Shown in pieces: positions 1-62,424 of a stretch of DNA of 62,424 nucleotides. The stretch covers positions 1-62,424 of IMG/VR virus record IMGVR_UViG_3300042397_000683, one strand, 5' to 3'. The translations under genes were made by a program, and so were the position numbers. How positions within the stretch are numbered: the stretch's first letter is position 1; each line of letters opens with the position of its first letter. The notes beneath the pieces are model-generated. The model saw only the letters and a program-made list of their open reading frames with translations. It had not been told where the DNA came from and ran no database searches. Source of the DNA: a virus.

Positions 1-97
1 AGCAAGAAAGAATCCAAATCAGAAAAGAAAAGCGAGTCCAAGAAATCGAACGCTGTGGCGAATCCGATTATATATAGCTCGGACTTTACGGTCGCTC
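1..97. repeat. Terminal direct repeat, left copy (circle closure)
   Basis: These 97 bases are identical to 62328-62424. The reading frame continues through the join: codons for a Ser/Lys/Glu-rich linker at the right end run on into the same codons here. This is what an assembler leaves when it closes a circle, so the unique genome is about 62,327 bp. The repeat could instead be a short physical terminal repeat, but it falls inside a coding sequence and its length is typical of an assembly k-mer. Confidence 0.93.
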
Positions 98-693
98 CAG
101 CAAGTGATGTCATTTCTATTATCGCAAGCGTAGGACTTAGTCAAAGTTCTCTAATGGGAAACTCTTCGTGGGGTATATCTTCTATGATATGGTCTACGTT
201 CGACCAGTTTGCTTTATCAGGTAGATACACCTTAATGAACTTCTCAGAAGGCAAGATGCAGTCCATCTCTAACTTCGGCGTCACAGGCGTCTATTTAGGG
301 GGCACAACGCTCGGATTTGTTACCGCTGCACATATCCAACCTTTAGGCAAATATGGTGTCTCAGGAGCCAACTATACGCTTAGTGTTGCAGGCGCAGATG
401 CTGGTCTCAACATCAGTAATAACGTAATGCTATTCTATACTATACCAGTTAAGATTAGCAAGAGACTGACAATATCGCCTGACATCTACCTATCAGGTAG
501 CTCAACAGGTTATTTAACGGCACAACAAAAGTTTATTACATCAGATGACATTGGGGTGCTTACAGGCGCATCCTTTGATATAGCGCTTACTAAACGCTTT
601 AAGTTTAATTTTGCGCTAAAGACTGGATTCAATACCAATCCAATTATTCCACAAAGTTATTTGGGTATGATTGGGACAAAGATAAATTTATAG
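1..693 (+). CDS. C-terminal part of a predicted outer-membrane beta-barrel protein (gene crosses the circle join)
   Basis: This is the 3' part of the gene that starts at 61749; joined, it codes for about 423 residues. The first 18 codons end the Ser/Lys/Glu linker. From about codon 19 the protein becomes a domain of some 210 residues rich in alternating polar/hydrophobic and aromatic stretches with many Gly, Ser and Thr, ending in a strand that finishes in Leu. That pattern is what one expects of a small outer-membrane beta-barrel, but I recognise no named family. An internal GTG at 55 could pass for a start, but the open frame continues upstream through it and across the join, where a GTG followed by a signal peptide is found. 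It is the last gene of the exported-protein cassette that includes a CsgG-like protein. Confidence 0.8.
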   Translation, partial: SKKESKSEKKSESKKSNAVANPIIYSSDFTVAPASDVISIIASVGLSQSSLMGNSSWGISSMIWSTFDQFALSGRYTLMNFSEGKMQSISNFGVTGVYLGGTTLGFVTAAHIQPLGKYGVSGANYTLSVAGADAGLNISNNVMLFYTIPVKISKRLTISPDIYLSGSSTGYLTAQQKFITSDDIGVLTGASFDIALTKRFKFNFALKTGFNTNPIIPQSYLGMIGTKINL

Positions 694-49792: not shown

Positions 49793-52700
49793 ATGACTAG
49801 GTTTTTAAAAAACGCAGATGTAACAGGTTATATCTCCCAAACGAGTGTAACCTCTTCTTTACTTAAAACTGATTCAGCAGGTAAATTAGTTGCTGCGGTA
49901 GCTGGCACAGACTATGCTACTCCAGGAACAATTGCTAGTGCAGATAAATTAATCCGCGAAGTTTATAATAAGACAGGGGCTACTCTTACAAAGGGCACTG
50001 TTGTTTACATTAATGACGGACAAGGAAACTTGCCTGCTGTTACCAAGGCAATAGCTTCTGGAGATTCCACTTCAGCGCAGACTTTTGGTGTTGTGCAAGC
50101 AGATATTACAAATAACAATAATGGATATGTTGTTGTTGCTGGCGGACTAGATAATATGAATACCAACGGATTAGGCGTTGGAACGGCACTATACCTTAGT
50201 TCAACAACTGCTGGAGAATATACTACTGTAAAGCAATCTGCGCCAAATCACTTAGTTTATATTGGTGTTATTGTAAGAGACCATCCTACACAAGGCGTTA
50301 TTGAGGTTCGTATTCAGAATGGATATGAATTAGAGGAGCTGCATAATGTAGCCATTGCTTCATTAGCCAATAATCATACTCTTGTTTGGGAATCAGCTAC
50401 TAGCCTTTGGAAAAATAAGACTATTGCGGCTGCGTTAGGGTATACCCCACAGCCTCAATTAAGCGGTACTGGATTTGTTAAAATTGATGGTACAACAATA
50501 AGCTATGATAATAGTACTTATTTAACTACAACTGCCGCATCTTCTACTTACCTACCTTTAGCAGGAGGAACACTTACGGGTGCTTTAATTGGCACAAGTT
50601 CTAGCTTTAGCGGAAATATAACTATAAGCGCAGCTGCTACAAACGGGTTAATTTTACAAAATTCATCTGGCGGAGAAAGTCCAAATGTTACATTTATAAC
50701 ACCTGTAAATAAGTATAACATTGACGCGAATGCACTTGGAGTTTTAAGGTTTTTTACAGAAAATACAGATGGTACTGGTGGAGTAGTAAGGGCGACTATT
50801 GATTCTAATGGCGCAGGAATGTTTATATCTAGCGTAACTGCAGCAAGTGGAATTTTTAATAATGGAGCAAATAGCACAGATGGAATTAAGGTAATATCCA
50901 CAACATCAAGTAGTCTATTTACTGGAGGCATTGAATTTATTAGAACAACGGTTGCTGGCGGCTCTAAAGTACAGCCATTAAGAGACGCTGCAATAGGCGG
51001 TGTAGGCTTCAATTTTTTAGTTACGGCAAATAATACTGCAGAAATAAATGCAACATATACTTCTGCTTTATCTATTTTAAATACAGGCGCTGCTACGTTT
51101 TCAAATAGTGTTACAGCAACATCTTTTATTAGGTCAGGAGGCACTTCGGCGCAATTCTTGAAAGCAGATGGAAGCGTAGACAGTTCTACTTATTTAACTT
51201 CTTATACTGAGACTGATACATTAGCAACAGTTACAGGAAGAGGAAACACAACCACAACTCGTATTGGCGTATTAACCTCTACTGCCATAAATCTTGCAGG
51301 AGCAGGTAATAGCGGAACCTGGGTTGGAGGAGTACAAGATGCTACTACTGGATGGTCTATATCCAATAATGGTATTGGCTTAAAGGCAGATGACACTACT
51401 TATGCTACAGTCGGAATTGATTCTTCTAATGGTATACTATATTTTGGTAGAACTACAGCTGGAGGTGTAGGTACATTGACATCGTGGTTGGAGGTTAATA
51501 GTGGTGGTGTAGCAAATTTTATAAGAGCTAGACCGCAACATAATGGAAGTAATTTAGCATTAGTAAGCGAAACACTACCAGTAGCTGGCGGAACAATGAC
51601 TGGGGCAATATTAATGGGTTCTACAGTAGCAGCTGCTGGAAATGCTCAACCAACTGCTTTGTCATATGGATTACTTCAAGGATTTGGAACTTTTAGATTA
51701 GCAGCTGATACAGACGAATCTCAATCTGAATTTGCTATTATTACAGCAGGGTATTCTCTAGCTAATGCAACAGCTGCCAATGGATTAGCAGTTGGTTATA
51801 ATACATTAACTTGGAAGAATAATACAGTTTGGCATTCAGGCAACTTTACGCCTGGCAATTATTTGCCACTTTCTGGTGGTACTATGACTGGAAACATAAC
51901 AATTACCAGTGCAGACATAAGAAGTAATGCTACATCTAACTGGACTGGAGACCCAGGTACACAAGGGAAGATTCAATACCATGCTTCTAGATGGTATATA
52001 GTTGCAGACCAAGATTCAAATAGAATAGTTCAGTTTAGAAGAAATGGAACTGACGTTTCACATATTGCTAATGATGGAACATATAATGGCAATATTACAG
52101 GAAGTTCAAGTACAGTTACACATTTTTCAGGCAGAGCAGATTTAGCTTGGTATAATATTATTTGGGGCGCAGGTAGTCCGTCCCATTTGTATTCAGCAGA
52201 TACCGTACAAATACAATCAAGTGCAGGGGCAATAAGAGCAAATATTTATTATGATAATCAAGATACAGGATATTACTTAGACCCCAATAATATATCTCGT
52301 ATCAGGGGATTAAGTATTGCTGGTAACGCTAGCTCTACAAGCACTTTAGACCAATTAGGATTTTGGGCTGTTGTTGACGGTGTTCCTAATACTACTTCTG
52401 CTATTGGTTTTAAGCAAGTATCTGGCATTTGGGCTGAACATGGAGTTACTAATGGCGCATATAATACGTACTTTACTATGGATACTCCTGGTAGAGGTTG
52501 GGTTTTTAGAAGAGCTACAAATGGGGGGAGTGATTATACAGCGGTCAATGTAGCTTCTATATCAAACACAGGTCATGCTCAATTTGATGGGTCATTACGT
52601 GCTCCTATATTCTATGATTCAAGTAATACGGCATTTTATTTAGACCCTAATGATACATCAAATTTAAGTAGACTTGTAGTAAATAATGCAATTTCAGGAG

Positions 52701-54145
52701 CAGCTCTTTTAGTTGGCTCAAATAGTACAGCACGAGTTCACGATGACAATGCAAGAAAAGCATTAGTTATAAATGCTGAATTTTATCCTGCTTTACAGAT
52801 TAATGCTTTCGCAGGTGGAAATACTACTCACGGAGGGTATATTACGATAAGCGGCAATTTAAGTAGTGGTGGTTATAGGCTTTGGACAATGGGTATAGCC
52901 AACCAAAACCCAGGTATTTTTAGCATAGGGTACAGTGATATGCAAGATGGGAATGGTCACTATGGGATTGGCGACGCTTGGTCAGGTAGTGATGCTCATC
53001 ACGGACGTTTAATAGTAGACACTTCTGGTAATACAAAAATTAGAGGAATGCTTTATGTTAATGGAACTAGTGGAGGAATAACTACAGGTAGCGCTGTAAT
53101 TCACGCTGGTAACATTGGTTCTCAATACGTAAGCCATGCTAATAATTTAAATTTACAGGGACTGGGAGATGGTTCTGTAAATGTAAGTAATGGTTCATCG
53201 GCTGTATACAGAAATGAAAATGGTAATGGTGGAAACTTAAGTTACGCCCCTGTATTACACTTAGGAGGTAGCGACACTATGTGGCAGATACAAGGCGACT
53301 ATTACAACAGCACTGACTTAAGATGGAGAGCAGGCTATGCAGGCACTTGGTATGCTTGGAGGCAAATTATACATACAGGTAATTTAGGTTCTTATGTATT
53401 GCCAATAACTGGTGGAACTTTAAGTGGTACACTTAATTTTACACAGCCTGTTGGTCTTGGATTTGCAAACGGACAATATATTAAAGACAATGGCACAGGT
53501 GGTTTAATTATTTCTAGTGGAGCTGCCATTAACTTGAATGCTACCTTATTAACATCAAACACTATTTTAAATTTTGCTCCTGGTGGTGCTACACCTTATG
53601 CAAATCCAACAGGATTAAATTGTGGTATTTCATTTGGTGGATATGAATCTTCTTCGTTAAGACAGTATGGTGTTTTTACAGAATTGGAAAATGTTGGCGG
53701 AAACTATACTAAACTAACATTTAACTGGCATACAGGTGTTAGAATAGGAGCTTCTTCATCTTATGGAGGTACTAGATTTTATAATGACGCGGCAGGGAAT
53801 GGTAGTAGTTCTATGATATTCTCAGTAGGTAACGGAGATTCTAATGTACGCGTACTAAATAACTTATATGCCGCAGCATTTTTTGAATCTTCTGATAGCA
53901 AATTAAAAACTCTTATTGAGGACAACTATCAAACAAAAGGAATAGAGGCAATAACTCCTAAACTTTATACCAAAAACGGAAAGATTGAATTAGGTTATTA
54001 TGCACAAGATTTTGTAGGAATACTAGATTCAGCTATTTCAAAAGATAATGATGATATCTTAAGCTTATCTTATCGTGAGGTTTTAGTGGCAAAAGTATAT
54101 GCTTTAGAGCAAGAGGTTGAACAATTAAAAGCAAAATTGAACTAA
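49793..54145 (+). CDS. Long tail fibre / adhesin with C-terminal S74 self-cleaving chaperone domain
   Basis: A 1,450-residue protein, rich in Asn, Ser, Thr and Gly. It repeats P-L/V-A/S/T-GGT(M/L)TG at about residues 254, 600, 700 and 1200, and Y-D-N/S-x-x-T-x-Y/F-Y-LDP(N) twice near 823 and 942. The last 90 residues (ESSDSKLKTLIEDN near 1361) form a peptidase S74 intramolecular chaperone: the Ser before SDxxLK is the cleavage site, and a coiled coil closes the C-terminus. The mature fibre is expected to trimerise and lose that tail. It probably carries host receptor recognition. No reverse transcriptase or template repeat is visible for diversity generation. Confidence 0.85.
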   Translation: MTRFLKNADVTGYISQTSVTSSLLKTDSAGKLVAAVAGTDYATPGTIASADKLIREVYNKTGATLTKGTVVYINDGQGNLPAVTKAIASGDSTSAQTFGVVQADITNNNNGYVVVAGGLDNMNTNGLGVGTALYLSSTTAGEYTTVKQSAPNHLVYIGVIVRDHPTQGVIEVRIQNGYELEELHNVAIASLANNHTLVWESATSLWKNKTIAAALGYTPQPQLSGTGFVKIDGTTISYDNSTYLTTTAASSTYLPLAGGTLTGALIGTSSSFSGNITISAAATNGLILQNSSGGESPNVTFITPVNKYNIDANALGVLRFFTENTDGTGGVVRATIDSNGAGMFISSVTAASGIFNNGANSTDGIKVISTTSSSLFTGGIEFIRTTVAGGSKVQPLRDAAIGGVGFNFLVTANNTAEINATYTSALSILNTGAATFSNSVTATSFIRSGGTSAQFLKADGSVDSSTYLTSYTETDTLATVTGRGNTTTTRIGVLTSTAINLAGAGNSGTWVGGVQDATTGWSISNNGIGLKADDTTYATVGIDSSNGILYFGRTTAGGVGTLTSWLEVNSGGVANFIRARPQHNGSNLALVSETLPVAGGTMTGAILMGSTVAAAGNAQPTALSYGLLQGFGTFRLAADTDESQSEFAIITAGYSLANATAANGLAVGYNTLTWKNNTVWHSGNFTPGNYLPLSGGTMTGNITITSADIRSNATSNWTGDPGTQGKIQYHASRWYIVADQDSNRIVQFRRNGTDVSHIANDGTYNGNITGSSSTVTHFSGRADLAWYNIIWGAGSPSHLYSADTVQIQSSAGAIRANIYYDNQDTGYYLDPNNISRIRGLSIAGNASSTSTLDQLGFWAVVDGVPNTTSAIGFKQVSGIWAEHGVTNGAYNTYFTMDTPGRGWVFRRATNGGSDYTAVNVASISNTGHAQFDGSLRAPIFYDSSNTAFYLDPNDTSNLSRLVVNNAISGAALLVGSNSTARVHDDNARKALVINAEFYPALQINAFAGGNTTHGGYITISGNLSSGGYRLWTMGIANQNPGIFSIGYSDMQDGNGHYGIGDAWSGSDAHHGRLIVDTSGNTKIRGMLYVNGTSGGITTGSAVIHAGNIGSQYVSHANNLNLQGLGDGSVNVSNGSSAVYRNENGNGGNLSYAPVLHLGGSDTMWQIQGDYYNSTDLRWRAGYAGTWYAWRQIIHTGNLGSYVLPITGGTLSGTLNFTQPVGLGFANGQYIKDNGTGGLIISSGAAINLNATLLTSNTILNFAPGGATPYANPTGLNCGISFGGYESSSLRQYGVFTELENVGGNYTKLTFNWHTGVRIGASSSYGGTRFYNDAAGNGSSSMIFSVGNGDSNVRVLNNLYAAAFFESSDSKLKTLIEDNYQTKGIEAITPKLYTKNGKIELGYYAQDFVGILDSAISKDNDDILSLSYREVLVAKVYALEQEVEQLKAKLN

Positions 54146-56012: not shown

Positions 56013-56303
56013 ATGTCATTTATCAAGCAGTTGTTCTCTGACGACAACGACATCAACGAAAAATCCGTACTAGGATTCTTATCTTTTGCAGTATTGTTCT
56101 TTTATGGAATAGTAGACATTGTAACTGGATATGTAGGTCAACAATTCGTTATTGAGCCTATTATCCTTGAAGTGTTTGCAGCACTAACAGCAGGTTGTTT
56201 TGGTATCTCTTCTTATGAGAAGGTTCAAAACCGTAAGACCGATGCTGAGCGCGAAAAGAACTTACCTGGAGGCTTAGACCCTCTACCAGAAGATGAAGGT
56301 TAA
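56013..56303 (+). CDS. Holin-like membrane protein, 96 aa
   Basis: A 96-residue protein with two hydrophobic segments (FLSFAVLFFYGIVDIVTG and VFAALTAGCFGISSY) and a charged C-terminus (KVQNRKTDAEREK). Two transmembrane helices, short length, and a position three genes before the endolysin fit a class II holin. Inner-membrane holes made by such proteins release the endolysin. Confidence 0.65.
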   Translation: MSFIKQLFSDDNDINEKSVLGFLSFAVLFFYGIVDIVTGYVGQQFVIEPIILEVFAALTAGCFGISSYEKVQNRKTDAEREKNLPGGLDPLPEDEG

Positions 56304-56898
56304 TATAGCCCTCTTTGTGTGTTGTATGATTGCTCTCTTCTATGCTTATACAAAGCATATGGAAGCAGGAGAGCCACGTCCTAACGACACGCTAGTTGTG
56401 CACGACACATCTTGGATTAAGCACGACTCTATTATAGTGAAGACAAAGATTGCTTACAAGGAAGTAATTGTTAATGTGATGTCTAAACCAGAGATGTTAC
56501 CTGACACTAACTACGATAACTTGAAGCGTCAGTATATGGCATTGCTTCAGCTGTATATGAATAAAGTAATTTATTCGGATACGATTCGCGTAGGAAATTA
56601 CGGATACATTGCAGTTTTAGATACAATTAACGAGAACAAAATAAAATATAGGAGGACGCGCGAAAATTATGAGATTCCTGTCGTTAAGGAGACTAAAACT
56701 ATTACTAAGTATGCACCACCCACTCGTAATCTATATATTGGAGGTGGCGTCTTGGCTAACAATACCGTTGGGCTAAGAGGTGCTGAATTAGGGATTATGT
56801 ATAAAACCAAAAAAGACCAGCTGTATAATGTGAAAGCATCAGTTAATGTCGATGGGACATTGCTTTACGGTGTTGGTTATTACTATAAAATAAAATAA
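56293..56898 (+). CDS. Spanin-like envelope protein, 201 aa
   Basis: A 201-residue protein with a hydrophobic N-terminus (residues 3-20, KVNIALFVCCMIALFYAY), a helical middle (MLPDTNYDNLKRQYMALL) and a beta-rich end (GAELGIMYKTKKDQLYNVKA, then YGVGYYYKIK). One membrane helix plus an envelope-spanning coiled region plus a C-terminal beta segment is the plan expected of a spanin or similar protein in Bacteroidetes phages. Its ATG overlaps the holin-like gene by 11 bases. Confidence 0.55.
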   Translation: MKVNIALFVCCMIALFYAYTKHMEAGEPRPNDTLVVHDTSWIKHDSIIVKTKIAYKEVIVNVMSKPEMLPDTNYDNLKRQYMALLQLYMNKVIYSDTIRVGNYGYIAVLDTINENKIKYRRTRENYEIPVVKETKTITKYAPPTRNLYIGGGVLANNTVGLRGAELGIMYKTKKDQLYNVKASVNVDGTLLYGVGYYYKIK

Positions 56899-57089: not shown

Positions 57090-57941
57090 ATGTTACTAAG
57101 AGTAGGTTCATTCGGAGAAGATGTTACTAAGCTTCAAGTTAAGCTTGGCGTAGACCCTATTGGCAAGTTTGGTCCTAAGACAGAGGCAGCAGTTAAAGGT
57201 TGGCAGTCAGCACACGGCTTAACACCTGATGGTATTGTAGGAGATGCAACGTGGTCAAAGATGTTTGCTCCAGTAGCAGAAACACCTGCACCAGCTCCAA
57301 TCGTCGCTCCTGCGCCAACTGTGGCGCCTGCAGCACAAGGATTCAAGCTAGATGCACTTAAAGGACACGTTCCTCAAACTGTTATCGACCAAATTCCTGA
57401 TACAGCAGCACGTTTTGGTATTACAACTCCATTACGCTTAGCTCACTTCTTAGCGCAATGCGGACACGAGTCAGGTGGCTTTAGAGCTGTACAAGAAAAC
57501 CTTAATTACTCAGCTAAGGGATTATGCGGAATCTTCCGTAAATACTTCCCTAGCGTAACGATTGCTATGCAATACGAACGTAAGCCTGAGAAGATTGCTA
57601 ACAAGGTTTATGCTAACCGTATGGGCAACGGCAACGAGGCAAGTGGAACAGGTTGGAAGTTTCGTGGACGCGGATATATCCAGCTCACGGGGACTGAAAA
57701 TTATAAATCATTTGACGCTACAGTCCCTGAAGACATTATAGCGAATCCTGATTTAGTAGCAACTAAGTATCCTTTAGCCTCCGCAGCGTTCTTCTTTAAG
57801 AAAAATAACTTATGGTCTATCTGCGACAGAGGTGCAAGCGCTGACGTTGTAACTGCTGTAACTAAACGCGTAAACGGTGGAACTATTGGTTTAGCAGACC
57901 GTCAGAAACATTTCAAGGAGTTTTATCATTTATTAGCATAA
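57090..57941 (+). CDS. Endolysin: peptidoglycan-binding domain plus GH19 lysozyme/chitinase-like domain
   Basis: A 283-residue protein. Residues 1-60 (GSFGEDVTKLQVKLGVDPIG, then TEAAVKGWQSAHGLTPDGIV) form a PG_binding_1 domain. A Pro/Ala-rich linker (63-85) leads to a GH19 domain (about 95-283): HFLAQCGHESGGF with the catalytic Glu near 127, then GWKFRGRGYIQLTG. There is no signal peptide, so the holin must release it. GH19 endolysins cleave the glycan backbone of peptidoglycan. Confidence 0.9.
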   Translation: MLLRVGSFGEDVTKLQVKLGVDPIGKFGPKTEAAVKGWQSAHGLTPDGIVGDATWSKMFAPVAETPAPAPIVAPAPTVAPAAQGFKLDALKGHVPQTVIDQIPDTAARFGITTPLRLAHFLAQCGHESGGFRAVQENLNYSAKGLCGIFRKYFPSVTIAMQYERKPEKIANKVYANRMGNGNEASGTGWKFRGRGYIQLTGTENYKSFDATVPEDIIANPDLVATKYPLASAAFFFKKNNLWSICDRGASADVVTAVTKRVNGGTIGLADRQKHFKEFYHLLA

Positions 57942-58066
57942 TGGCAAAGCAAAAACCATCATCGGAGAACAAAAAGGTTGTATTTGGTGTACGCCGTAAC
58001 GGCAAGCACAAAAAGACCAATGGTCCAAAAGAAAGTCCTTCTAAGAAATCTAGAGGGCAAGGGTAA
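57941..58066 (+). CDS. Small basic protein, 41 aa
   Basis: A 41-codon frame for a basic peptide (VVFGVRRNGKHKKTNGPKES) with a Ser/Lys/Arg tail. Its ATG overlaps the endolysin stop by one base. The pattern 'VFGVRRxGKHKKxNGPK' recurs in Bacteroidetes phages as a short late protein; function unknown. Confidence 0.6.
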   Translation: MAKQKPSSENKKVVFGVRRNGKHKKTNGPKESPSKKSRGQG

Positions 58067-58068
58067 TT

Positions 58069-58527
58069 ATGAGACTACTGCTCAGCATATTGTTATTTTG
58101 GACAATGCGTCCCACAGAAATAACTGTAGCATCTGTACAGAATAATGTACAGATTGGCGCTCTTGCTGGCAATAGGAACTTAGAGTTTGGTGTTAAAAAT
58201 ATGCTAGAGGAGTTCTTGCAAGAAGCAGGACACGATGTCTCCGATGATGCACCAACTCAGATTAAGGTAGAGATTCTTTATTTAGACGTATTAAAAACTC
58301 AGTCTAATCTATCAGTATTCCACAACAATAAGGAAGCTGTAGTAATTAGAATGAGGGGCAAATTAATACAGGATGGAAAGGTTAAAAAGACCGTTATCGT
58401 TGAAGAGCAAGCAGCTGAAGTTTCAATGTCTGCATTACTAATTGACGAGGGCGGTAAATTTAACCAAACCAACTTAAGCTCTGCATTAAAGAAATCTTGT
58501 AACACCTTAATCACTAAGCTCTTATAA
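58069..58527 (+). CDS. Exported or envelope-anchored protein, 152 aa (first gene of the export cassette)
   Basis: A 152-residue protein. A short hydrophobic start (RLLLSILLFW) could act as a signal or anchor; no lipobox follows. The rest has an alternating helix/strand layout (KNMLEEFLQEAGHDVSDD, then TQIKVEILYLDVLKTQSNL, then a helix-rich end). It is reminiscent of the small alpha/beta envelope lipoprotein fold used by CsgG/LptE-type proteins, though I cannot verify that. It begins the cassette ending at the circle join; the next gene starts one base before its stop. Confidence 0.55.
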   Translation: MRLLLSILLFWTMRPTEITVASVQNNVQIGALAGNRNLEFGVKNMLEEFLQEAGHDVSDDAPTQIKVEILYLDVLKTQSNLSVFHNNKEAVVIRMRGKLIQDGKVKKTVIVEEQAAEVSMSALLIDEGGKFNQTNLSSALKKSCNTLITKLL

Positions 58528-60302
58528 TGAAAAAACTATTGTTTGCCCTTGCAGCAATTCTGCTGCTTACCTACAGCACATCTGCTCAAACAGTTAAATT
58601 AAGTTTGCAAAATGCAAACACCAATACCAATGTTGACGGAAACGTTATCAACAAAGGGGATGAGTTCTTAGTAACGGTAATGGCAGATGGCAATAGCAAC
58701 ACAACTACCCGCGCTCTTTACTTTGATTTTGAATATCAGAATACTGCATTCCAGTTAATGACTGTTAATCATACAGGAACTATGGGCAACGGAGGCATTA
58801 TGCCAGCTGGCTCACAAATTTCAATAAGCCATTACGATTACCCAGGATATAGTTTTGCTAAGACTAGCTTAAATTCTACAGCTAACGGCAACACAAACTA
58901 TATTAACTCCCAATACAATTATACACAGGGAGGCTCTAAGTCAATTCTTCGTGTCTATCTTAACTGGGCTGTTAATAGCGGAGGTCTAGGTAACGATAGG
59001 TTATTAGTTCTTAAGTTCAAACTAAAGACAGATGCTCCAGGATTTGCTTGGAATCCTATTGTAATGAACTTTGCGGCAGCGTTTAATCAGAATGGCACTA
59101 GTGGCTCAACCTTGATGACAACGCCTCTTACAAGCGTTATTATGCTAGACCCAACTGCTACTAGATATATCAATCCAACGATTGATTACAACGCAAATGT
59201 GGACGTGCAATCTCTACATAGAATTGCATTTACAGACTCAGTTGCTAATACAACTTACTTAGTGGACGCCTTATCTGATGGTACAATACCTGTAGACCAG
59301 ACGCGCTTCAAGCCTAATACAGTCTACCACATTAGGACGCTATTTAATATGGATAGTATTAAAGACTTATCCGCGGCAGCAGTTACTGTTTCTGACTACA
59401 CTACTGCGCAGGCTGAGTTTGTTACACAAAACTTAGACGGAACATTCAAGAATCAAAGCATAATTACAGGTGCAGGATATTATGCCTCAGACGTTAACTT
59501 TAACAAGACGTTAGATGGAGGAGACTTAGTTAGATTGTTTGCGCAGGTATCAGGTGTAGAATCATTAGTTACGCTGCCTACTAGTTATGCATCAGGTACA
59601 GATATGTATATGAGTGTACCTACGTTTACGGATTCTACATTTAACGCTATGACGGCGTCTAGCTGGAAGACTGTTGCTAATAATTACGTTCGCTTTAAGA
59701 CAGCCGAAATCGGCAAGAACCTACCATTAAAGATTAAGTTCTTAATCCCAGGAGATATAAACAGAAGCCATAGCTCACAGGTTATTATTAATAATTCTAT
59801 TGCAACTAACGCTGTGCCTAGTTTAAAGAAAAACTTAGCTACAAAGCAGACAGCGCATCTTTTAATTAACACGCCTCAGCTTATTCCATCTATTAATGTT
59901 ACAATTTCAGGTAAAACTGTAACAACTAATAGTTTTGATATACCTGTTAAAGTTTCTTCTGGAGCAACAAGTGTATCAGCTCTGCAATTTGAGTTCGTTT
60001 ATGACCCAACAAAAGTTAAATTTGTAGCGCTTTTAAATGAACTGCCTAACACTTGGTATACCTTTGTGGATAATAAGGCAGGACGCGTAAGATTTGGGGC
60101 ACTAGATAAGGACTTAAAAAATCCAGTAGCAGGAGACCTTACTCCATTTACCTTAAAGTTTGAGACAATAGGTAACGGAGCAGACATTAATAGCTTTATT
60201 AAGGTGTCTCCTAATATGGATGCGGCATCAAAGACAGGATACCAACTAGGGATTAATTTAAACCTAGAGGTTATAAAATTAACGGGAATAAATAACTTTT
60301 AG
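58527..60302 (+). CDS. Secreted protein with cohesin-like domains and a dockerin-like middle, 591 aa
   Basis: A 591-residue protein with a signal peptide (MKKLLFALAAILLLTYSTSAQ; cut after Ala-20). The region 22-210 has the beta layout of a cohesin (ALYFDFEYQNTAF...), and 457-585 is a clearer cohesin (SFDIPVKVSSGATSVSALQF, then VKFVALLNELPN and FGALDKDLKN). Between them a dockerin-type calcium loop is seen: SDVNFNKTLDGGDLVRLF (about 321-338) and a second half GDINRSHSS (about 408-416). Cohesins and dockerins bind each other, so one protein carrying both could chain or fold back on itself. It sits in the export cassette with a lipoprotein and a CsgG-like protein. Confidence 0.7.
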   Translation: MKKLLFALAAILLLTYSTSAQTVKLSLQNANTNTNVDGNVINKGDEFLVTVMADGNSNTTTRALYFDFEYQNTAFQLMTVNHTGTMGNGGIMPAGSQISISHYDYPGYSFAKTSLNSTANGNTNYINSQYNYTQGGSKSILRVYLNWAVNSGGLGNDRLLVLKFKLKTDAPGFAWNPIVMNFAAAFNQNGTSGSTLMTTPLTSVIMLDPTATRYINPTIDYNANVDVQSLHRIAFTDSVANTTYLVDALSDGTIPVDQTRFKPNTVYHIRTLFNMDSIKDLSAAAVTVSDYTTAQAEFVTQNLDGTFKNQSIITGAGYYASDVNFNKTLDGGDLVRLFAQVSGVESLVTLPTSYASGTDMYMSVPTFTDSTFNAMTASSWKTVANNYVRFKTAEIGKNLPLKIKFLIPGDINRSHSSQVIINNSIATNAVPSLKKNLATKQTAHLLINTPQLIPSINVTISGKTVTTNSFDIPVKVSSGATSVSALQFEFVYDPTKVKFVALLNELPNTWYTFVDNKAGRVRFGALDKDLKNPVAGDLTPFTLKFETIGNGADINSFIKVSPNMDAASKTGYQLGINLNLEVIKLTGINNF

Positions 60303-60307
60303 TTAAG

Positions 60308-60661
60308 ATGAAAAATACGATAGCGGTTTTGTTGATAGTGATGCTTGCAGCTTGCCAAGACATTGAAGTGTTAGAAAAGGAAACAAGCCTCGGTTCGATT
60401 CCGCAACTAACAGATATTACTAGTCTTGTAGTGGATAGCAAGCAGGCTACTATTGTAGCAAATACAACTGTAGGGGCTAAATACTCTGTGCAGGTGTACA
60501 AATTCGGAAGTTCCGAACCACTAAGAACTGTTGGATTTACAGCTACATCAGTAGCTACTATTAAGACTATTAAATTAGATACATTGTCTCGCGGGTTATA
60601 TGACTTAACTTTGACGGACGTATCAGGCGTAACAATTAAAAAACCTTTAATCATTAATTAA
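60308..60661 (+). CDS. Lipoprotein with a small beta domain, 117 aa
   Basis: A 117-residue protein with a lipoprotein signal: MKNTIAVLLIVMLAAC, with the lipobox Leu-Ala-Ala-Cys ending at residue 16. The Gln-Asp-Ile-Glu that follows the Cys is like the acidic export tag of surface-exposed Bacteroidetes lipoproteins. Residues 40-117 form an Ig-like or beta-sandwich stretch (KQATIVANTTVGAKYSVQVY). It may display or tether the cassette's cohesin-like protein on the cell surface, which is inferred from neighbourhood only. Confidence 0.65.
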   Translation: MKNTIAVLLIVMLAACQDIEVLEKETSLGSIPQLTDITSLVVDSKQATIVANTTVGAKYSVQVYKFGSSEPLRTVGFTATSVATIKTIKLDTLSRGLYDLTLTDVSGVTIKKPLIIN

Positions 60662-60662
60662 A

Positions 60663-60971
60663 ATGGCAGAAGAACAAGAAGGCGGAGGCTCATTAAAGAG
60701 CATCCTTATCGGACTAGCAAGTACTATCGCACTAGGTGTAGGTGGGTTTGTGACTAAACAATTAACAGGCGAAGAGGAAGCAGCGGCTGCACCAGCGGCA
60801 GTAACAGCTCCAGCACCCGTAATTAACATTACAACTAACAACACGCAACAGCAAAAGCAAGCTGCAAGCGCAGGTGGGGGAACTAAGGTTATTGAGCGCG
60901 TTGTAGAGAAGCCAGCAGCACCTAAGAAGAAGACTGAAAAGGAGGCGCTACAGGAAGAGCCTAAGTGGTAA
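60663..60971 (+). CDS. Small membrane-anchored protein, 102 aa
   Basis: A 102-residue protein with one hydrophobic helix (ILIGLASTIALGVGGFV, residues 14-30), then Ala/Pro/Thr-rich linker and a Lys/Glu/Pro tail (VIERVVEKPAAPKKKTEK). The linker and charged end suggest that it spans the periplasm or reaches out from the membrane. It lies directly before the CsgG-like gene. Family not recognised. Confidence 0.5.
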   Translation: MAEEQEGGGSLKSILIGLASTIALGVGGFVTKQLTGEEEAAAAPAAVTAPAPVINITTNNTQQQKQAASAGGGTKVIERVVEKPAAPKKKTEKEALQEEPKW

Positions 60972-60976
60972 AAATA

Positions 60977-61024
60977 CAAACCAATATTGGCTTGTAAATG
61001 ATAATTATCCAAACCAATGGTTTG
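60977..61024. promoter_or_regulatory. Two palindromes upstream of the CsgG-like gene
   Basis: CAAACCAATATTGGCTTG (60977-60994) is palindromic except at one pair, and CAAACCAATGGTTTG (61010-61024) is a perfect 7+1+7 palindrome. Both share the CAAACCAA half-site and lie 18-66 bases before the ATG at 61042. They look like operators of a dimeric regulator controlling the downstream part of the cassette. No clear -7 element is present. Confidence 0.5.
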
Positions 61025-61041
61025 CATTACTAATATAAACT

Positions 61042-61752
61042 ATGAAGAAGATATTATTCTTGTCACTAATATTGACAACATTTGTTACAAAAGCACAAGT
61101 AGCTTCTGTTAAAACAGAAGCCTACACAGCATCGTTTGAGAAGAAGATTAATATCGATTCATTAATAAACTATGATGGTCCAAAGATTCCTATTCAGCTA
61201 TTGTCTTTAGGTATCAATGAAGAGGTATACGCGGCGTATCCTGAGCTAAAAGACAAGCGTGTGGGTCTTGGTGTCACTAACATTGTTATCGAGTTCCTAG
61301 AGGAAACTAATCGCTTCACGTTTACCGAAGACAAAGCTGAGATTAAGAACAGAATGGTCAAGCAGTTCCAAGCTTCACAGGCTGGAATCTCTGAGAATAA
61401 GCTAGATGGCAGAGGTAAAATCAAGTTAGCTCAATACTTTGTTTACATCGAATGCTACGACTTCTCTATTAGTGAAGATGAATCCATTTCAATTAAAGGC
61501 GACACAAAGCAAACTGTGGTCACGCGATTAGGTTTGCAGGTAAAATTCGTTAATGCAGAGACTGGAGAGTTTTTTACAGGCTCAGGATTAGGAGAAGCTA
61601 AAACTACGCGCGAGGCTACATTAATGAATGACGGCAACTTCGCGGAGGTTAAGTTTAATCAATCTACTATTGGTACAACAACCAAGAAGGCGCTAGAGAA
61701 TGCTTCAGCTAAGATTATCGTTCGAATGATTAAGAAGAAGATATTCAAGTGA
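61042..61752 (+). CDS. CsgG-family outer-membrane secretion-pore-like protein, 236 aa
   Basis: A 236-residue protein with a signal peptide (MKKILFLSLILTTFVTKAQ). The mature part resembles CsgG: VGLGVTNIVIEFLEETNRFT (about 75-95) followed by AEIKNRMVKQFQASQAG, the helix pair that in CsgG follows the 'degradation' loop, then GKIKLAQYFVYIECYDFS and a C-terminal beta/helix with TTTKKALENASAKIIVRM. CsgG forms a nonameric pore that exports curli subunits through the outer membrane. Two differences: the mature N-terminus lacks the lipid-carrying cysteine, and no CsgE/CsgF-like partners are next to it. The match is by pattern and spacing. Confidence 0.6.
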   Translation: MKKILFLSLILTTFVTKAQVASVKTEAYTASFEKKINIDSLINYDGPKIPIQLLSLGINEEVYAAYPELKDKRVGLGVTNIVIEFLEETNRFTFTEDKAEIKNRMVKQFQASQAGISENKLDGRGKIKLAQYFVYIECYDFSISEDESISIKGDTKQTVVTRLGLQVKFVNAETGEFFTGSGLGEAKTTREATLMNDGNFAEVKFNQSTIGTTTKKALENASAKIIVRMIKKKIFK

Positions 61753-62424
61753 AATGGTTATGGCTTCTGATACTTATTCTGACATTCTTTGGTGCTAAAG
61801 GGCAGGTACTAACACAAGTATTCGTTGACCCTTGTAGCGGAAGAGTAACTACTGTAGTCGTACCAATTGCTAATGGAAAAACAACTGTCGTCTATCGAGG
61901 ACAATACAGAGTAGTAACGGCAAACGATATTACTTCAGGAGCATTACAAGCGTGGATTAACGATTTAACTATTAACTTCCCTTGTCCGCAAGCTACTGTT
62001 GCTGTACAACAAACCGTTACAAACGCAGTTCAACAAGCGGTAGCACAAGCCACAGCAGCAGCAACAGCAACTGCGACAGCGGCGGCTACTTCAGCAGCAA
62101 CATCTGCGGCAACATCAGCTGCCTCCTCAGCGGCATCAGGAGCAGCATCTTCAGCAGCAAGTAGTGCGGCATCGTCAACGCCAGCACCAGCAACGTCATC
62201 ATCAAGCAGTTCAAGTAGTTCATCTCAAGGCGAGAGTAGTTCTCCTAAAACGGAGTCTAAGTCAGAAACAAAGTCAGAGTCTAAAAGCGAAGAGAAATCT
62301 GAATCTAAATCCGAATCAAAAAGTGAAAGCAAGAAAGAATCCAAATCAGAAAAGAAAAGCGAGTCCAAGAAATCGAACGCTGTGGCGAATCCGATTATAT
62401 ATAGCTCGGACTTTACGGTCGCTC
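61749..62424 (+). CDS. Envelope/surface protein with signal peptide and low-complexity linker (5' part; gene crosses the circle join)
   Basis: The 5' part of a gene of about 424 codons whose 3' part is at 1-693. It starts at GTG 61749, overlapping the upstream stop by three bases, and opens with a signal peptide (MKWLWLLILILTFFGAKGQ). A small beta-rich domain with DPCSGRVTTVVVPIANGKTT follows, then QQTVTNAVQQAVAQATAAAT and about 90 residues of Ala/Ser/Thr repeats, then Ser/Lys/Glu repeats (KSESKSEEKSESK), then the beta-barrel-like part across the join. The linker may span peptidoglycan or hold the barrel away from a surface domain. No ATG is available in frame before the signal peptide, so GTG is the start. 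Confidence 0.75.
   Translation, partial: MKWLWLLILILTFFGAKGQVLTQVFVDPCSGRVTTVVVPIANGKTTVVYRGQYRVVTANDITSGALQAWINDLTINFPCPQATVAVQQTVTNAVQQAVAQATAAATATATAAATSAATSAATSAASSAASGAASSAASSAASSTPAPATSSSSSSSSSSQGESSSPKTESKSETKSESKSEEKSESKSESKSESKKESKSEKKSESKKSNAVANPIIYSSDFTVA
62328..62424. repeat. Terminal direct repeat, right copy
   Basis: Identical base for base to 1-97. It lies inside the Ser/Lys/Glu-rich coding repeat, which joins in frame with the left end. Trimming one copy gives the circular genome of about 62,327 bp. Confidence 0.93.

Follow-up and report, generated by a model that had tools for sequence, protein, structure and literature searches.

What would a phage gain from genes that resemble parts of bacterial outer-membrane export machines? 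The question is raised by a cassette of six genes at positions 58069-62424 of the IMG/VR virus record IMGVR_UViG_3300042397_000683, whose full 62,424 nucleotides form the window analyzed here. We read the cassette as encoding a complex that would reach across the envelope of an infected Bacteroidota cell to display modular adhesin-like proteins outside, and we give this reading about an even chance.

As an earlier note on this DNA had described from the letters alone, all six open reading frames (ORFs) are present on the plus strand, and neighbors overlap or are narrowly spaced. The note also held that the last gene closes the circle, and this was borne out. The window genome is circular (62,327 bp), with a direct terminal repeat of 97 bp in which the first and last bases are identical, and joining the ends gives a single ORF of 423 amino acids (61749-62327 plus 1-693). 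The note credited four products with signal peptides or anchors. Hydrophobic N termini or anchors are clear in COH, LIP, TM, and CSGG; the hydrophobic start of A is short in the window, and a full anchor is found in many relatives. Promoter and terminator scans gave signals no higher than in shuffled sequences. The genes, labeled A (from 58069), COH (58527), LIP (60308), TM (60663), CSGG (61042), and BAR (61749 through the origin to 693), are as follows.

58069..58527, plus strand: A, 152-amino-acid CsgG-superfamily (YajG/Lipoprotein_16-like) protein, paralogue of CSGG (PF03923, hhalign)
58527..60302, plus strand: COH, 591-amino-acid secreted modular protein, with a cohesin at amino acids 458-546 (59898-60164; PF00963)
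60308..60661, plus strand: LIP, lipoprotein with a beta fold like that of the type IX secretion system (T9SS) sorting domain (Por_Secre_tail, hhalign, alignment)
60663..60971, plus strand: TM, predicted single-pass inner-membrane protein (hydrophobic segment, amino acids 11-31) whose disordered tail ends in Trp
61042..61752, plus strand: CSGG, exported protein with a CsgG-like fold, the best-conserved part of the cassette (AlphaFold, Foldseek)
61749..62424, plus strand: BAR, 5' part, with a signal peptide, two-Cys N-domain, Ala-rich helix, and Ser/Lys-rich linker (ORF, wrap-around, model of a relative)
1..693, plus strand: BAR, 3' part, with the end of the linker and a 12-stranded outer-membrane barrel (model of a relative, Foldseek); bases 1-97 repeat 62328-62424

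Distribution of the cassette

Three scans located CSGG in more than 200 IMG/VR loci, on contigs reaching 308 kb. With iterated profiles over 225 loci, the core COH-TM-CSGG-BAR and also A were recovered at nearly every locus. We defined lineages by clustering CSGG at 95% identity (n = 51) and counted neighbors within about 8 kb: BAR is present in 51 lineages, TM in 50, COH in 49, A in 47, a holin-like gene in 37, and an endolysin gene in 36. This arrangement is far beyond chance. Gene order in related phages had been named beforehand as a test of the earlier note, and it is conserved in about 50 lineages and in Flavobacterium phage immuto.

Among the phage records searched, immuto is the only cultivated species with a CSGG match (55% identity); thus, the Flavobacterium elemo phages do not carry CSGG. 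The gene set and order of immuto gp13-gp19 (NC_055915) are identical to those of the cassette, and these genes are annotated only as lectin, cohesin, or hypothetical. Immuto differs from the window phage in its 160-kb genome and in having COH split over several genes, the last of which carries a sorting domain. Terminase and portal matches, together with the nearest isolates of the terminase (Manatee Spring phage, 33%; Flavobacterium elemo podophages, 32%), place the window phage near podophages of Flavobacteriia. The terminase of immuto is not among the relatives of the window terminase at 1e-5. Given the 55% identity of their CSGG proteins, a transfer of the module between unrelated phages is probable. 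Its many carriers are presumed to be viruses of Flavobacterium-like water bacteria.

A bacterial origin of the cassette was considered and rejected because the cassette is nearly absent from cellular genomes: a scan of 84,980 species genomes found it on two contigs only, both phage-like by content. Within the presumed host family, 1 of 399 genomes has it, a Flavobacterium metagenome-assembled genome (MAG) that already holds one of these two contigs. A 254-kb contig in a Bacteroidetes MAG (L084) combines the cassette with an endolysin-family gene and other phage-like genes and is probably a misbinned large phage. We also observed thioredoxin-like and metallophosphoesterase genes recurring near the cassette in larger phages (L081, L085, and several other loci).

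The proposed cargo and its sorting domains

If the cassette displays proteins on the cell surface, COH would be the cargo, of cohesin, dockerin, or lectin type. Conservation across the cassette is highest in CSGG (70% mean column identity) and lowest in COH (17%). A constant CSGG combined with a variable COH fits an exposed cargo mounted on a fixed machine and a function at the cell surface, for instance in adhesion or in superinfection exclusion. The cohesin that the earlier note assigned to COH falls just below the family cut-off in the window (PF00963, 6e-5; 23.7 bits against 24.1, 0.4 bits short) and is clear in relatives, 12 of 23 diverse homologues having one (best 1.2e-10). The dockerin proposed alongside it is found in relatives (PF00404 in 4 of the 23, best 7.8e-5), the window protein having dockerin-like DxN motifs only. 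The same homologues include four with Lectin_C, three with GEVED, and one with PA14, and this set of adhesin-type domains (lectin, PA14, GEVED, cohesin, and dockerin) supports the display of cargo outside the cell.

How such cargo might leave the cell is suggested by its C terminus. T9SS type A sorting domains are carried by 7 of the 23 COH homologues (best 1.9e-11 with Pfam and 4.7e-10 with TIGR04183), and the T9SS channel family SprA is present in 40 of 41 host-family genomes. In most phages with the cassette, the sorting domain would send COH through the host T9SS. The window COH has no such domain, which stands at the C terminus of COH in 152 other loci. In the lineage of the window, LIP, a separate protein of similar fold, would stand in for it. 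LIP is the lipoprotein that the earlier note recognized, and its Cys16 is invariant in the alignment. Por_Secre_tail matches 8 of 16 members of the LIP family (best 6e-5), and LIP aligns with the COH sorting domain (hhalign E 1.7e-5).

The two forms are mutually exclusive. Of the loci, 152 carry the domain on COH and lack LIP, whereas 58 carry LIP and lack the domain on COH; no locus combines the two, and 4 have neither. By lineage, the fused domain is found in 31 and LIP in 17, that of the window included; none has both, 1 has neither, and 2 are not scorable. This pattern of fusion and splitting argues that LIP serves COH in place of the sorting domain. In the window phage itself, where COH is without the domain and LIP is separate, the link to the T9SS is therefore indirect.

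The predicted envelope proteins and the export alternatives

The earlier note placed a CsgG-like pore at 61042; the CsgG fold of this product was recovered, and its working as a curli-type pore was not. The AlphaFold model of CSGG has a predicted local distance difference test score (pLDDT) of 69 and a predicted template modeling score (pTM) of 0.61. In a Foldseek search of the PDB with this model, CsgG entries fill the best 16 places (top 4uv2, E 7e-7, probability 1.00) over some 230 aligned columns; PelC, FlgT, GNA1162, and, as a weak match, TraT come after them, and the best match in a viral library is a phage protein annotated as CsgG. Sequence profiles of CSGG found no match in Pfam or the PDB, and hhalign of the CSGG family against CsgG proteins gave a probability of only 2%; the assignment thus rests on AlphaFold and Foldseek. 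As modeled, CSGG has the CsgG fold.

Over its full length, CSGG matches no structure better than CsgG, and other phages carry CsgG and CsgF (PMC7029224, PMC9004378). CSGG might then be an outer-membrane pore of the curli type, through which COH or other products of the cassette would be exported, a scenario that we consider improbable. The two proteins share the fold over nearly their full length and a strand-turn motif (NVSTGE / NAETGE), but the CsgG family profile (PF03783) is silent in all 18 CSGG relatives examined. A lipidation cysteine is missing from the window copy, and a lipobox is found in 59 of 218 relatives and lacking in 159. The hairpins are shortened as well: the first has a partly hydrophobic face that bears conserved acidic residues (the strands of CsgG itself are no more than mildly hydrophobic, so this face speaks neither for nor against a pore), and the model has a single strand where the second membrane hairpin of CsgG should be. 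No Pfam match to CsgE or CsgF was obtained among the ten proteins scanned, and CsgA and CsgB were not found either. Moreover, the cargo in most relatives has a T9SS signal of its own and so might leave the cell without using the CsgG-like protein as its channel.

The families of A and CSGG are homologous (hhalign probability 97%, E 9e-12), and the window A weakly matches the YajG lipoprotein family (PF03923, 3e-4, below cut-off), so the cassette holds two paralogues of the CsgG superfamily. In a trans-envelope display complex, both would be exported proteins, probably assembled into rings that act as scaffolds in the periplasm or at the outer membrane.

The beta-barrel announced by the earlier note takes shape in a model of BAR from a close relative (L008; pLDDT 64), in which a small N-domain leads through a helix and some 90 disordered residues to a barrel of 12 strands. 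All 16 full-length members keep this layout, with two cysteines in the N-domain and a linker rich in Ser, Asn, Gly, and Ala. FapF is the top Foldseek match (7e-7, about 7% identity), with OmpG, NalP, and NanC close behind. A Pfam scan of BAR returned no informative match; hits to DDHD and CDC27 were discarded because they lie in the low-complexity linker. FapF, an amyloid transporter of Pseudomonas, consists of a periplasmic coiled coil, a disordered linker, and a 12-stranded barrel (PMC5557850), and BAR has the same succession of an N-terminal periplasmic region, linker, and barrel. Unlike the Fap system, however, BAR shows no sequence similarity to FapF, other small barrels score nearly as well, and no Fap amyloid or FapD partner was recognized. 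We take the likeness as one of architecture rather than homology. BAR would thus sit in the outer membrane as a barrel tethered by a long disordered linker to its small N-domain.

Since both outer-envelope parts resemble amyloid exporters (CSGG resembling CsgG, and BAR resembling FapF), they might instead secrete an unfolded fiber subunit of the Fap or curli kind that glues cells together. We regard this as very improbable: neither an amyloid repeat protein nor a C39 peptidase was recognized among the cassette products, and FapF barely leads OmpG, NalP, and NanC among the barrel matches.

The inner-membrane part of the proposed display complex would be TM, which has one hydrophobic segment and, after it, a disordered tail of low complexity. 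Its last residue is Trp in 127 of 127 distinct homologues, which looks like a docking signal. We read TM as a predicted inner-membrane anchor with a docking end, whose tail could be placed on either side of the membrane. A second conserved membrane protein (MDNSQATGFKDLLNQMMTRRW...) is encoded at L016:7426-8004 and in 19 other loci, lying between TM and CSGG in several of them; of 41 representative loci, 20 have a member of its family, and none was seen in the cassette of the window.

The lysis-gene neighborhood and the possible purpose of the cassette

Endolysin and holin genes usually adjoin the cassette, which makes lysis the main rival explanation. In the window, the genes concerned lie upstream of A.

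56013..56303, plus strand: holin-like protein with two transmembrane segments, directly before CSGG in some relatives
56293..56898, plus strand: spanin-like protein with an N-terminal transmembrane segment and C-terminal strands, in 13 of 51 lineages (putative function, based on its layout only)
57090..57941, plus strand: LYS, endolysin with peptidoglycan-binding and GH19 domains (PHROG 181, 3e-68; PF01471, PF00182), the usual neighbor of the cassette

The gap between LYS and A is occupied by a small basic ORF of 41 amino acids (57941-58066, plus strand; MAKQKPSSENKK...) that overlaps the endolysin stop codon, with identical spacing in close relatives. Farther upstream, 49793-54145 encodes a 1450-amino-acid tail-fiber-like protein whose C terminus (SDSKLKTLI...ELGYYAQDF) appears by eye to be like an S74-type self-cleaving chaperone domain.

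In the lysis scenario, the holin, the spanin-like protein, and the endolysin would work together with TM, the CsgG-like protein, and the barrel, which would breach or gate the outer membrane for egress when infection ends, in place of classical spanins. Linkage speaks for it: within about 8 kb, LYS is present in 36 and the holin in 37 of the 51 lineages. LIP and TM resemble the outline of a spanin pair made of a lipoprotein and an inner-membrane protein, and the CsgG of phage Melnitz has been proposed as a lysis timer (PMC9004378). However, domains of an extracellular kind (cohesin, dockerin, lectin, PA14, and T9SS sorting) would be out of place in a lysis device. LIP is missing from 31 lineages, the tail of TM is disordered and of low complexity rather than coiled-coil, and in the immuto group no endolysin of the family is linked to the cassette. 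Overall, we consider a lysis or egress module unlikely, though a serious contender.

Several points nevertheless weigh against a display complex. One of them is also the strongest argument for the lysis scenario: among 37 contigs longer than 100 kb, 26 have LYS within 5.5 kb of the cassette, whether upstream, inside, or downstream of it. As many of these large contigs are near-identical, the counts do not amount to independent observations. Endolysin and holin surroundings suggest a role at the time of lysis; alternatively, this linkage may merely mirror late expression. The confidence of both AlphaFold models is moderate (pLDDT 69 and 64), and many barrels score near FapF. COH of the window is without a sorting domain, and the window LIP scores only 0.099 for the sorting-domain family. 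Finally, the tail of TM could lie on either side of the membrane.

Known phage systems share single features with the cassette. Pelagimyophages and the Methylophilales phage Melnitz carry CsgG and CsgF genes of debated purpose, for which both lysis control and sibling capture have been proposed (PMC7029224, PMC9004378). As in the cassette, these CsgG-type genes come without curlin subunits. In contrast, they adjoin CsgF and were matched to curli proteins, whereas here the match to CsgG is by fold only, and the cassette, carried by Bacteroidota phages, has a paralogous pair plus a barrel, an inner-membrane protein, and cohesin/T9SS cargo. In Cryophage, T9SS type A sorting domains mark the products of variable single genes (endoglucanase, GH39, and PA14), which were described as unique (PMC7468147). 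Relatives of the window cassette likewise encode proteins with such domains, and one COH relative has PA14, but the cargo here belongs to a fixed multigene module of about 50 lineages. Among openly licensed papers, those on T9SS, cohesin, or CsgG relevant to Bacteroidota phages were limited to Cryophage and proteobacterial phages, and no description of the module was found. The earlier note overlooked the paralogy of A and CSGG, the likeness of BAR to FapF, the T9SS-marked cargo of most relatives, and the usual neighborhood of lysis genes.

On the display reading, the likely purpose would be to alter the surface of the infected cell, so that it binds other cells or surfaces or blocks superinfection; adhesion and superinfection exclusion are putative, unproven purposes. 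A further proposal, which we hold only tentatively, is that this is a widespread virus-specific envelope machine common to unrelated phages of Bacteroidota, in which a CsgG-fold pair and a FapF-like barrel are coupled to the host T9SS and coat infected cells with exchangeable adhesins that steer sticking or superinfection. It is possible that such a machine is categorically new. CsgG genes in phages and T9SS cargo in one phage had been reported apart, each as an oddity, and the module joins both in about 50 lineages. Because it is present in a cultivated pair, immuto on Flavobacterium sp. LMO8, the purpose of phage outer-membrane secretion genes is directly testable. If our reading is true, the cassette would be a conserved case of T9SS use by phages.

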